From Druceiella hillmani (taxonomy: Eukaryota > Arthropoda > Insecta > Lepidoptera > Hepialidae): a stretch of 64,000 nucleotides of DNA. The stretch is from positions 3,743,501-3,807,500 of the forward strand of contig JAYKKI010000095.1 in the NCBI GenBank assembly GCA_039881145.1, in the 5' to 3' direction. A model generated the notes under the pieces. It searched no databases and was not told the origin of the DNA. It worked only from the letters and a program-made list of their open reading frames with translations. This document shows, piece after piece, positions 9,085-61,248 of the stretch (the stretch's first letter is position 1; each line of letters starts with the position of its first letter). The position numbers and the translations under genes were made by a program.

Positions 9085-9372
9085 TATATTGAATATATTT
9101 GGCGTTAGTTTTGTAGAAATTCATTATTCACAATTAAATGAAAATAAGTGATGTAGTATTATTTCTACTTTCTTTAAGTTCTTTACCATGACCTAGGTTT
9201 CGTTGTATTACAACATATTCAGGTGGGCTATTAGTAAAGATTGAATCTTTGCTATTTGAATCTTTGCTAATATCCCACCTGAAGATGTTGTAATACAACG
9301 AAACCTAGGTCGTGATAAAGAACTTAAAGAAAGTAGAAATAATACTACATCATGTAGTTTTATTTAATTGTG
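9085..9372 (-). mobile_element. Palindromic hammerhead-bearing element E1
   Basis: Two arms of about 110 bp form a near-perfect palindrome around the 9230-9270 spacer. The ~45-bp unpaired tail is on the left, so the element lies in minus orientation: it starts CACAATTAAAT and ends in ATATATTCAATA. It is flanked by the 10-bp direct repeat AATGTTTTTT (9075-9084 and 9373-9382). It sits inside interspersed repeat copy A, whose uninterrupted relative is at 47258. No coding capacity is evident; ORFs on both strands are products of the palindrome. Confidence 0.9.
9275..9315 (+). ncRNA. Hammerhead-ribozyme-like motif, right arm of E1
   Basis: Order of parts: CCAC, CTGAAGA, T, hairpin GTTGT-AAT-ACAAC, GAAA, CCTAGG, TC, GTGA. 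Stem I pairs CAC with GTG, and the fourth pair is lost (C against A). The CTGANGA and GAAA core boxes are intact. The opposite arm on the minus strand (9186-9226) has CTGAATA instead of CTGAAGA and is probably dead. Confidence 0.6.
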
Positions 9373-9826
9373 AATGTTTTTTAGGTTATTTCCTCGATAT
9401 GTAAAGGTGAACTTTTCATATTTTCATACACCGCTGTGTAGAGTATCATTGAATAGGTATTTCAAAAATATTGGTGGTATGTCATGAACATTTTTTAGAT
9501 ACTGCCATCCGTTTACGAGATATTATAATTTAAATTGGTCACATTTGTTACAGTTACGTATCCTCACTCTCTACTAGCTAAATCTCTATTTTCAAATAGC
9601 AGAAAAGTATTCACAAATAGTAGGAAATATAATGAAATTAAAAAGAAAATTATCACAGCTAAGTAGACTCTACTAGTTTATTAGTAATATTCGAAAAATT
9701 TACATAATATATCGGGTCTGTCAAAGTTCACAGAAATGCCATAAAAATCACTTCAGTCAACAGCAAACCTAACAACCTTTGTATTTTAAATTATACATTT
9801 GTTATTTCTGTCAAAGATATACTAGG

Positions 9827-17662: not shown

Positions 17663-17974
17663 AAAAAGAAAAGGCACAATTAAACAAATTTAATTTATTT
17701 CCTTTCACTTTGACTTTTTATGATGTGTCCAGAAATTATATTTGAAGTTAAAAGAATGAAGATGTACCCCTATAAAGTAAGCATAAATGTTTATACTGAT
17801 TCCGCTAAGTGAACAGTAATTGTTTTCAAAGAACTAGAAAACACAGTTTTGGTTTTCGAACTGAAAAGTACAATCACAATATTGTGAATAGTATTTTCTA
17901 TATAATTACGATATTTACATAATTAAATGAAACTACGTGATGTAGTATTATTTCTACTTTCTTTAAGTTCTTTA

Positions 17975-18015
17975 CCACGACCTAGGTTTCGTTGTATTAC
18001 AACATCTTCAGGTGG
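17975..18015 (-). ncRNA. Hammerhead-ribozyme-like motif, left arm of E2
   Basis: Read on the minus strand: CCAC, CTGAAGA, T, GTTGT-AAT-ACAAC, GAAA, CCTAGG, TC, GTGG. All pairs of stems I and II are kept. Confidence 0.6.
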
Positions 18016-18043
18016 GCTGTTAGCAAAGATGATTGCTAATAGC

Positions 18044-18084
18044 CCACCTGAAGATGTTGTAATACAACGAAACCTAGGTCGTGG
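18044..18084 (+). ncRNA. Hammerhead-ribozyme-like motif, right arm of E2
   Basis: CCAC 18044-18047 pairs with GTGG 18081-18084 (stem I). The core CTGAAGA is at 18048-18054. Stem II GTTGT/ACAAC (18056-18068) closes an AAT loop. GAAA is at 18069-18072. CCTAGG (18073-18078) can give a two-pair stem III or a self-complementary dimer contact. Predicted cleavage follows the GTC ending at 18080. The T at 18055 is one base more than the canonical core between A9 and stem II. Confidence 0.65.
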
Positions 18085-18194
18085 TAAAGGACTTAAAGAA
18101 AGTAGAAATGATACTACATCACGTAGTTTCATTTAATTGTGAATAATGAATTTCAAAAAAATTAATGCCAAATATATTCAATACGATATTTACA

Positions 18195-31602: not shown

Positions 31603-31700
31603 ATTGAATATATTTGGCGTTAATTTTGTAGAAATCCATTTTTCACGACTAAATGAAACTACGTGATGTAGTATTATTTCTACTTTCTTTAAGTTCTTTA

Positions 31701-31741
31701 CCACGACCTAGGTTTCGTTGTATTACAACATCTTCAGGTGG
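31701..31741 (-). ncRNA. Hammerhead-ribozyme-like motif, left arm of E3
   Basis: On the minus strand all parts (CCAC, CTGAAGA, GTTGT-AAT-ACAAC, GAAA, CCTAGGTC, GTGG) are intact. Confidence 0.6.
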
Positions 31742-31812
31742 ACTATTAGCAGATATCTTTGCTAATAGCCCATCTGAAGATGTTGTAACACAAAGATATC
31801 TTTACTAATAGT

Positions 31813-31853
31813 CCACCTGAAGATGTTGTAGTACAACGAAACGTAGGTCGTGG
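31813..31853 (+). ncRNA. Hammerhead-ribozyme-like motif, right arm of E3
   Basis: CCAC and GTGG close stem I, and the core CTGAAGA and GAAA are intact. The stem II loop changes from AAT to AGT, and stem III reads CGTAGG instead of CCTAGG, removing one of its two pairs. Confidence 0.55.
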
Positions 31854-31910
31854 TAAAGAACTTAAAAAAAGTAGAAATAATACTACATCACGTAATTTCA
31901 TTAAAATGTA

Positions 31911-33728
31911 AATATTAGATTATAAACATTTTAATGATAGTATCCGTAAACGCTTTAGATCATTTCCAGATTAAAAAACATTGATTACTAAAGAAAAACA
32001 ATTTCGGAGTACCTACTGACTTCTTAGCAATTTAATTATCTATTTATACTTTAGAAATGCTTTGATTACAGAATAAAACGTTCATCCAAGCTTACTTAAT
32101 TACAGCTTTCGTAGCTATAGCAACAAAAAACAAAAAGTTCCAGCTATGAAGTGTTTTAATATATTTTGTTTGTTTATCAATCCCTTGTCCATTTATACAA
32201 GCTTCATTTATGATCCCACCTTTCACTAAGGTGATATTCTAGGGAAACTTGCCAATATCCTTTAACACCCATAAGTTTTATGTAAAAACCTACATTTCAT
32301 ATTGACGTTTATCAGTACTAGTTGATTTCGCTGTGACAAGGATACGGAAAGTATAAAAAAAATTTTTTTTTTATTCACACGTGTGTCACTATAATTCAGT
32401 ACAGCGGATATACTAATGGAACAAATTCGATATGGATCGTCTTAAGAATATTTTTAAAAAAATTTCGATTTTCTTGAAGAGATTCGGTCATCATATTGAA
32501 TGATGCGAACAAAAATGAAACTTTCATAACGGGCAGAGGATTCATAGACAAGCAAACAATATTAAAACACTTCATAGAAGCAGTTTGTGTTTTTTTTATT
32601 ATCTTGGCTCCAAAAACTGCGACTGTTAATTGAATGAAAGTTTTGTTCTGTAATCAGAGCGTTCTTAAAATAAATACAGATAATAAAAATGTTAAGGAGT
32701 TACATTAGTTAATAAAAATGTTAAGGAGTAATAATTATTTTTAATATCTTCCAAGCCAAAGTTGCTATAAAGATTCACATGAATTCACAGGATAAACTTC
32801 ACAGGATGCGCGGGAACACAGCCAATGGCTTAACCTTGAACTTGACCTTGTTGTTTTATTGCTTTGAAGAACAGTATTTTTATTTCAATCGATATACTTA
32901 AGTCATATTTTTTTAACATCAATGTTTTTTTAGCCTAGCAATAATCTAATGCGTTTACAAAGATTGTCACTAAAATGTAATTATAAAGATATTTATTACA
33001 TTGTTGTAAAAAATCCTCAAGCTCCAGTTTGTGCACAACGTGACTAGATGTTTAGCATTTTTTTTGGTAATAAATTTGAACTTCTTCGTTTAGGGAACCA
33101 AAAATTGCCGGTCTCCTTTCCAGTATTATTTGTTTGTAGTTAACGCATAAATATATTGTCATAGATTTTTTCCAGAGAAACGGAAATTGGTGCTTTTTAT
33201 TCTAATAGGAGTGGAGATTTTATTAGAGTGGACATTTTAATGATATTAAGTTAGTTTATCCATTATTTATTTTAATATTATTAAGCATGGATTCCATTTT
33301 TATTAGACTCTTAAATTTTTTATTGATATTTGTTACTATGTTTTATGCAGTCATACCTGCTAATTTTATAAAGAGGGAAGTTTTGTTTACTAGTCTTGTT
33401 TTCAGGAATTACCACAAAAACTGCTTATTCAATTGATATGAAACTTACATTTTTGAATAGCTTATTATAACATACAGGATATATTATACCTATTATAGAA
33501 AGCATAGGTAATGAGCGTTAACAATTAAAATGGGTGCATTTTTGAGTTAAAGTTTTAAACCATTATAGCTATATTAAAATAAAAAAAGTTAAACAGTATA
33601 AGGCGCTAATTGAAACAAGTTTTCTGTTATGACCCGCTTTACGTTGCAAAATCAGACTGTAGAAATATTTTGAGTTAAATAACATCTATTTATTAGAGGT
33701 TATTTGTTTTAAGCATATTTTTACAAAC
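31911..33728. other. No gene recognised
   Basis: AT-rich. A short tandem duplication of TTAATAAAAATGTTAAGGAG lies around 32680-32730. Nothing else stands out. Confidence 0.4.
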
Positions 33729-33738
33729 TTAAACCACA

Positions 33739-33855
33739 ATTAAACCTAGGTCGTGGTAAAGAACTTAAACAAAGTAGAAATAATACTGCATCACGTAGTT
33801 TCATTTAATTGTGAATAATGAATTTCTACAAAATTAACGCCAAATATATTCAAGA
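33739..33855 (+). mobile_element. 5'-truncated single-arm copy E4 of the palindromic family
   Basis: Homology starts at 33742 with AAACCTAGGTCGTGG, in the middle of the hammerhead motif, and runs through the whole 3' tail to ATATATTCAAGA. The first arm and loop are missing. Both sides carry the 10-bp direct repeat TTAAACCACA (33729-33738 and 33856-33865). The copy was therefore inserted in truncated form and not trimmed afterwards, as expected for reverse transcription primed at the target. Confidence 0.9.
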
Positions 33856-57591: not shown

Positions 57592-57856
57592 CCTCGCGTG
57601 ATTTTCCAATCTACAACAAATAATTCATTAGACAAATACTCCATTATGGAAATTTTTTTTAAATCTTTTTTTTATCAAATAAATCAAGAGTGATCATTCT
57701 AAATATCCAAATATAAATTTTCTTGCAATAAAATAGACAAAAACAGTGAAAATTAAACCTTTGATAAAGTGCACTTGTTTTCAAAACATAATTTTTAAAC
57801 ACAATTAAATGAAACTACATGATGTAGTATTATTTCTACTTTCTTTAATTTCTTTG

Positions 57857-57897
57857 CCACTACCTAGCTTTCGTCGTATTACAACATCTTCAGGTGG
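57857..57897 (-). ncRNA. Hammerhead-ribozyme-like motif, left arm of E5
   Basis: On the minus strand stem II reads GTTGT-AAT-ACGAC (one G-U pair), GAAA is kept, stem III reads GCTAGG and the cleavage triplet is GTA, still an allowed NUH. CCAC and GTGG are intact. Confidence 0.5.
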
Positions 57898-57942
57898 GAT
57901 ATTAGCAAAGATGCTATATCCCACCTGATCTTTGCTAATATC

Positions 57943-57983
57943 CCACCTGAAGATGTTGTAATACAACGAAACCTAGGTCGTGG
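57943..57983 (+). ncRNA. Hammerhead-ribozyme-like motif, right arm of E5
   Basis: Identical in all paired and core positions to the motif of E2 (18044-18084). Confidence 0.6.
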
Positions 57984-58089
57984 TAAAGAAATTAAAGTAG
58001 AAATAATTCTACATCACGTAGTTTCATTTAATTGGGAATAATGAATTTCTACAAAATTAACGTCAAATATATTCAATATAATTTTTAAA

Positions 58090-60734: not shown

Positions 60735-60973
60735 TTGTTTTTTTTATATAATTATGTATTTTAAAAAGTAAAAATTAGTATTGCAAAAATTGATTTAAAA
60801 AAATTTACCTACAGTATGCATCTTTATTTTGATATTACTGAAGTATTACCAGTTAAATTTGTAATTATAAAGACTCAATAAATATCTAAACAGAAATTTT
60901 AATAACAACAATTTACAAAGTAGTAAAGAGGTAAGTAATTATTAGCTTTAAATATTTAGTTTAAGATATATAA

Positions 60974-61248
60974 CAATTAAATGAAACTACGTGATGTAGT
61001 ATTATTTCTACTATCTTTAATTTCTTTACCACGACCTAGGTTTCGTTGTATTACAACATCTTCAGTTGGGATATTAGCAAAGATTCTTTCTATCTTTGCT
61101 AATATCCCACCTGAAGATGTTGTAATACAACGAAACCTAGGTCGTGGTAAAGAAATTAAAGATAGTAGAAATAATACTACATCACGTAGTTCCATTTAAT
61201 TGTGAATAATGAATTTCTACAAAATTAACGCCATATATATTCAATTAT
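60974..61248 (+). mobile_element. Palindromic hammerhead-bearing element E6
   Basis: Starts CAATTAAATGAAACTACGTG and ends with the family tail at ATATATTCAATTAT. The 9-bp direct repeat GATATATAA (60965-60973 and 61249-61257) flanks it; counting one mismatch the repeat would be 13 bp. The arms are the best matched of the family, which is why 72-codon near-identical frames appear on both strands. Confidence 0.93.
61107..61147 (+). ncRNA. Hammerhead-ribozyme-like motif, right arm of E6
   Basis: Intact in all core and paired positions. The minus-strand counterpart (61029-61069) has CCAA in place of CCAC, which breaks the first pair of stem I. Confidence 0.6.

Follow-up and report, generated by a model that had tools for sequence, protein, structure and literature searches.

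The locus at positions 18044-18084 of the window, by which we mean the whole 64,000-nt stretch of Druceiella hillmani DNA that was analyzed, raises the question of whether a short string repeated in palindromes is a hammerhead ribozyme, which element carries it, and whether it is cleaved in the animal. The string CCAC-CTGAAGA-T-GTTGT-AAT-ACAAC-GAAA-CCTAGG-TC-GTGG was found at 18044-18084 (+), exactly as the preliminary description had given it, with a twin copy at 17975-18015 (-). When the 25-nt core string from CTGAAGA to GAAA was searched with up to 3 mismatches, 11 places were found in the window and none in 100 shuffles. Ten of the 11 are arms of five palindromes, whose arms of 70-124 nt are 88-98% complementary in an inverted-repeat search, and in every one of them the motif points outward, away from the centre; the 11th (31774+), a broken and incomplete copy, lies within the third palindrome (31603-31914). 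The full 41-nt motif is exact in five of the 11 copies, carries one change in two, two changes in two and three changes in one, and is ruined in the copy at 31774+. The statement that the motif is kept in at least eight arms is fair for the core, but the whole motif is perfect in only five arms.

The palindrome around the motif, E2, spans 17918-18182 (inverted repeat 17918-18141). Its short arm (17918-18030, -) covers q18-130 of a 171-nt arm reference (q1-171) and lacks the tail, and its long arm (18033-18182, +) covers q22-171 and ends in the 41-nt tail, with point changes. On this reference CTGAAG starts at q37, and the hammerhead is predicted to cut between q69 and q70. In the right-arm motif (+), with stem I CCAC/GTGG, stem II GTTGT/ACAAC and core CTGAAGA and GAA, A15.1-U16.1 lies in ACCTAGGT and cleavage is predicted between 18080 (C) and 18081 (G); for the identical left-arm motif (-) it is predicted between 17979 and 17978. 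E2 is bordered by a target-site duplication, TACGATATTTACA, at 17907-17919 (+), the last bases of which overlap the element end, and at 18182-18194 (+).

The other window elements are built alike. E1 (9088-9375, -) has a long arm at 9088-9249 (-) and a short arm at 9259-9375 (+); its hammerhead at 9198- carries two changes, including G8 to T in the core, and that at 9279+ carries one stem I change. E3 (31603-31914, -) has a long arm at 31603-31751 (-) and a short arm at 31798-31914 (+), with the broken motif piece at 31774 as an extra. E5 (57800-58077, +) consists of a short arm at 57800-57912 (-) and a long arm at 57928-58077 (+), with the target-site duplication ATAATTTTTAAA, and E6 (60973-61245, +) of a short arm at 60973-61085 (-) and a long arm at 61092-61245 (+). 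A sixth element, at 33736-33853 (+), is a single arm (q53-170) that starts inside the motif and has no complete hammerhead. The broken direct copy at 31774-31816 adjoins the right arm of E3 as if the reverse transcriptase (RT) had jumped back on its template, and partial direct self-repeats are seen in a few arms (L008, L076, L082 and E3). Two long runs of the TA dinucleotide, ~1 kb from each other (948-1034 and 2020-2083), make up most of the other inverted repeats listed in the window. The mir-5444 model (RF03511) fits both strands of 17952-18107, with 52 and 49.7 bits against a gathering score of 90; a microRNA reading was rejected on this score, and long perfect hairpins would be expected to draw such models. 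If transcribed, the palindrome would yield a long hairpin that Dicer might process.

The invariant core residues of a hammerhead (CUGANGA, GAA, A15.1-U16.1 and H17) are all present in the motif, and the order and spacing of core and stems proposed for it hold. The CCTAGG box, as read from the sequence, is too short for a hairpin helix III. It is better read as ACCTAGGT, because A15.1 and U16.1 are part of ACCTAGGT and form the ends of this self-complementary 8-mer. An 8-bp stem III would therefore be possible in a dimer, and none in the monomer. The predicted minimum free energy fold of the monomer is not a hammerhead and is no better than those of shuffles.

No match was obtained in the window at Rfam gathering score. 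When 18030-18100 was searched alone, RF00163 (Hammerhead_1) was the only family listed, one lower-scoring overlap of the same clan being omitted, and its boundaries were exactly 18044-18084, with 14.6 bits (gathering 34) and an E value of 0.32. In a longer stretch, the same place was assigned to Hammerhead_HH9 (12.8 bits, E 2.5). The motif thus resembles Hammerhead_1 in how core, stem I and the A15.1-U16.1 region follow one another and are spaced, and differs from it in score; the covariance-model check gave a relaxed hit to RF00163, and its distance from the gathering score counts against filing the motif as a canonical Rfam type I member.

Conservation was assessed in 67 anchor-chosen arms, taken from 60 regions with an exact outer anchor and enough upstream sequence. 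The core diverged by 4.8%, stem I by 4.5% and stem II by 3.8%, against 7.3% for the upstream and 6.9% for the downstream flank. Three subfamily sites (q31, q81 and q89) account for most of the flank divergence, and without them the flanks drop to ~4.4% and 1.8%, so that conservation is no higher in the core than in the flanks. The excess of core conservation looked for across genome copies was therefore not found in these 67 arms. Among 42 anchor-chosen arms that span the motif, the core is kept in 21 and core plus stems in 13. The stem cells of these decayed arms include 1 double-changed paired and 1 double-changed unpaired cell, together with 23 unpaired and 11 paired single-sided changes; compensatory stem changes, which the preliminary description had proposed to look for, were not seen in these arms. 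When hammerhead families sharing this spacing and these loop lengths were sought, 2 genome places (1 and 1) turned up, against 1 in the control (1 and 0); the genome holds no other such family in which covariation could be followed.

The genome that contains the window (2.586 Gb, 181 contigs) was searched for copies, as the preliminary description had proposed. The 25-nt core, with up to 3 mismatches, occurs at 118,487 places (59,288 + 59,199), and the reversed-pattern control at 5 (2 + 3). An independent 30-nt string from the outer arm has 26,810 + 26,632 exact matches and none in the control. Chance occurrence of the motif was rejected on the window and genome counts, and the dispersed palindromic family claimed for the window is borne out by both. 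As far as our literature searches show, an expansion past 100,000 motif copies, which in the samples seen are chiefly end-only palindromes, looks new.

The carrier was reached through a GIY-YIG family search, which found an ORF flanked by inverted arms (L032) with a GIY-YIG match of 34.3 bits, above the Pfam cut-off of 22.6. With this endonuclease ORF as query, 150 places were scored from 6151 first-look candidates, and a hand count of the 150 gave at least 25 head-to-head pairs less than 6 kb apart. At L064 (C74), a 757-aa ORF matching RVT_1 (1.9e-14) and GIY-YIG (3e-4) sits between inverted arms of ~139 nt, both of which carry the exact motif. At L063 (C137), two Penelope-like elements (PLEs) lie head to head, with 2.35-kb arms that are 99.6% alike (RVT_1 1.6e-14, GIY-YIG 1.4e-3); the 25-nt core is present at both ends, with CCTATG instead of CCTAGG in one arm. 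The GIY-YIG matches of L064 and L063 (21.4 and 19.4 bits) are slightly below the Pfam cut-off of 22.6. Homologues of the PLE numbered 1164; the eukaryotic names among the 120 listed are insects, beside one bacterial-MAG name. The insects listed include Parnassius, Euphydryas, Phthorimaea, Diabrotica and Cacopsylla, with 35-44% identity over 83-97% of the query, and RVT_1 occurs together with PF01541 in some of the listed relatives. The features checked for PLE membership, all of which were found, were an RT ORF, a C-terminal GIY-YIG domain, inverted pLTRs with a tail on one of them, and a short target-site duplication. Because the RT + GIY-YIG elements at L064 and L063 carry the same core in their inverted ends, the window palindromes are taken as end pieces of this PLE, and the link to PLE-type minimal hammerheads drawn for the window is upheld. 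On sequence grounds, the motif is the terminal hammerhead of a GIY-YIG-bearing PLE, with the clade assigned from domain order and homologues. Most of the 150 scored RVT_1 matches in the genome (L034, L035 and others) belong to another family of RTs, which often has an open frame of 911 aa and looks young from its near-identical scores. COX1-like fragments, most with stops, were seen in nuclear contigs at L125, L126 and 29 further places, and are probable NUMTs; one of them, translated with table 5, looks arthropod-like.

The inner ends of the arms were then placed on the arm reference. The commonest arm start is q17 or q18 (ATCTTTG), found in 22 of the 67 anchor-chosen arms and at 70 of 100 arm ends among 50 listed of 4281 junctions reaching q22. 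ATCTTTG (q17-22) resembles a transcription start inside the terminal repeat, and may be one; joins there often share a self-complementary AT. Junctions nearer the predicted cleavage site were collected with q75 anchors and at most 22 nt between them, which gave 243 junctions (control 4). Each junction was counted once despite its listing on both strands, and the first 50 in contig order were listed here as in the other junction searches. Of the 100 listed arm ends, 39 lie exactly at q70, the G that follows the cut in GUC^GUGG, with 7 at q71, 0 at q69 and 3 at q68; the bounded gap hides arms that reach far upstream, but does so near-equally for q69, q70 and q71. The q70 share is 36 of 96 listed ends after repeated fillers are dropped. 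In the q57-anchor control region the largest share was 13 of 100 ends (50 listed of 59 junctions), and the q91-anchor region has a milder peak of its own, with 20 of 100 ends at q89 (50 listed of 297 junctions). With q70 anchors and at most 8 nt between, 106 junctions were found (control 1), and in 44 of the 50 listed both arms start exactly at GTGG with no further match. An A directly precedes GTGG in 50 of 94 listed ends, as would be seen if the RT added a T after template run-off. We read the pile-up at the predicted bond GUC^GUGG as insertions of hammerhead-cut RNA, which suggests cleavage in the living organism. Cut RNA would be a minor template, because only 2 of the 67 outer-anchor arms, both in one element, start at q70. 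Our searches of the open-licence literature turned up no report of a genomic footprint of PLE hammerhead cleavage.

The same counts bear on the possibility that the element is an ordinary PLE whose hammerhead is a dead relic that no longer cuts, the q70 pile-up being a pausing site or the cut of another nuclease. The weak Rfam score, the lack of a conservation excess and of covariation, the competing monomer fold and the rarity of q70 starts in anchor-chosen arms all agree with a relic. Against a relic stands a pile-up that falls exactly at the predicted bond, with no listed end one base upstream and few one base downstream; an RT coming from the 3′ side would be expected to halt, if blocked by structure, ahead of GTGG (q74) or of the ACCTAGGT helix (q69), and q70 is neither. 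We regard the dead relic as unlikely, if not strikingly so.

The outer ends of the arms fall into two types, a short end near q130 and a long end at q171. The 156 arm ends comprise 77 long and 72 short ones, with 7 unclear. Among 56 adjacent head-to-head pairs, 50 are short/long, 1 is short/short, none is long/long and 5 are unclear, so that 50 of the 51 classified pairs consist of one short arm and one arm that is 41 nt longer. This set mixes motif-chosen loci (L001-L030), outer-anchor loci (L065-L124), the window and L063/L064; E1 and E3 stand outside the pair and duplication count, and their arm types come from mapping onto the arm reference. No direct or tail-to-tail neighbours within 420 nt were seen for the 156 arm ends. 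Target-site duplications of at least 10 nt, mostly 12-13 nt, flank 32 of the 50 short/long pairs (0.07% when flanks are re-paired), and 18 of the 50 have no duplication of at least 10 nt; in L123 the long duplication match is mostly A. As far as literature searches show, a short/long rule on this scale looks new.

The elements with q70 starts follow the same pattern. The sample comprised 20 of the first 29 listed junctions in contig order plus L078; 8 junctions, mostly ones with an odd or longer filler or a longer arm, were passed over. Of these 21 elements, 19 are short/long, 1 is short/short and 1 unclear. Duplications of at least 10 nt flank 11 of the 21, against 0 in re-paired controls, and 10 have no duplication of that length. 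Since the duplications differ from one another, the q70 elements are separate insertions.

Head-to-head arms could also arise if a single cDNA or antisense template primed itself (snap-back), instead of by two-sided priming at the target, as has been proposed for the rotifer head-to-head Penelope repeats in the accessible part of the source (PMC3846280), and the few bases between the arms at many central joins fit such a snap-back. A copy folded back on itself should have the same outer end on both arms, but the classified pairs are short/long with a single exception. The inner ends of paired arms are often unequal as well (q57/q17 in L074, q92/q40 in L085, q116/q21 in L102), and bases added between arms with ends that do not complement each other would also speak against folding back. 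We judge snap-back decidedly unlikely. The strictness of the short/long rule, together with the duplications and the additional bases found between arms, would instead favour two separate initiations, one on each cut strand.

It is very improbable that each palindrome was copied whole from a palindromic master RNA, and not made anew at each insertion. The fillers between the arms are nearly all different, with 48 distinct fillers among 50 listed q75-anchor junctions and 47 among 50 listed q91-anchor junctions. The few that recur (2 among the 50 listed with q75 anchors and 3 among the 50 listed with q91 anchors) are what a master RNA would leave, and L078 and L138 share a filler despite different duplications. 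This 8-nt filler, ACTTTTTA, lies between q70 arms that also differ in arm variants, and points either to a templated source or to propagation of the whole palindrome; the fillers ACGTTTA (L142) and AAGTTTA (L134) look related to it. Finally, the inverted ends, the 12-13 bp duplications and the high copy number would also suit MITEs derived from a DNA transposon that has terminal inverted repeats and makes fixed target-site duplications, a reading to which we give hardly any credence and which was rejected, since the larger relatives fetched encode RT + GIY-YIG, the arms are truncated unequally from inside and the outer ends differ by a fixed tail.

We therefore return to insertion by a PLE. 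It is quite likely that the motif is a minimal type I hammerhead of a GIY-YIG-bearing PLE and that the palindromes are short insertions made by the machinery of that element. In the proposed mechanism, the template RNA would start at ATCTTTG inside the terminal repeat, or at GTGG after the hammerhead cut GUC^GUGG, and would be bound by the protein of the element. The endonuclease would cut both target strands ~12-13 bp apart, and each cut end would prime reverse transcription from either of two internal sites that lie 41 nt from each other, which would place a tail on one arm and none on the other. Both copies would run to the 5′ end of the RNA or stop early, and their ends would be joined head to head, in many cases with a few extra nucleotides in between. 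The ribozyme itself presumably makes the GTGG 5′ end, priming at the target is probably two-sided, and the hammerhead may work as a dimer through ACCUAGGU or with the help of protein.

Several of these features have counterparts in known systems. In the accessible part of the report on Poseidon_Ac of Anolis (PMC11167929), the element cuts and extends both target strands, for which the counterpart here would be the 12-13 bp duplications, and its RT starts internally at two adjacent sites that define an optional 30-40 bp tail. The family described here shares with it an RT + GIY-YIG ORF and two RT start sites that form an optional tail, and both have an ATG string at the start of stem II; the Anolis ATG is the start codon of the ORF, whereas here it is followed by TTG TAA and therefore does not open an ORF. 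The terminal repeats are inverted in the copies fetched here and tandem in Poseidon_Ac as that part of the report describes it, and the very many short palindromes are also unlike Poseidon_Ac. According to the same text, the Anolis hammerhead at the ORF start cuts only with protein added, mutants of it leave insertion in vitro unaffected, the element inserting without cleavage, and no RNA-seq reads begin or end at the cleavage site, whereas here the cleavage bond is marked by genomic junctions.

The Penelope of Adineta vaga, in the portion of the paper available (PMC3846280), has inverted pLTRs that often lie head to head, and its authors favoured self-priming. Inverted pLTRs, head-to-head order, short target-site duplications and junction palindromes are common to both, and a 31-bp tail optionally present on one inverted pLTR corresponds to the one-sided tail found here. 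It differs in its few copies and in duplications of 8-10 bp or none, and the word hammerhead is absent from that portion. Animal non-LTR retrozymes, as presented in the accessible text of PMC7229834, are likewise short retroelements without coding sequence that contain type I hammerheads and reach very high copy numbers (up to 120,000 copies in axolotl). They are built as direct tandem repeats, from which linear and circular RNAs of ~170-400 nt arise, unlike the arms here, which have no direct neighbours within 420 nt. The motif resembles the minimal PLE hammerhead of the literature (PMC6155905, PMC7229834, both as far as the parts consulted describe it), which is described in the former as having no helix III and no characteristic tertiary contacts and as conserved across all available PLE sequences.

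PLE hammerheads, inverted ends and tails are already known; the cleavage footprint looks new, as far as literature searches show. We lean towards the view that cleavage by the PLE hammerhead in vivo has been recorded to the nucleotide in this genome, and that the cut RNA served as template and the palindrome arose by simultaneous priming on two strands from two fixed start sites. Since every new palindrome has two terminal repeats that face outward and can start further templates, the minimal elements would then spread as a form of PLE that copies itself with borrowed protein. A sharp pile-up of this kind makes the use of PLE hammerheads in the animal testable from genome sequence alone, and the copies of this family are a large natural data set on two-strand priming by PLEs.
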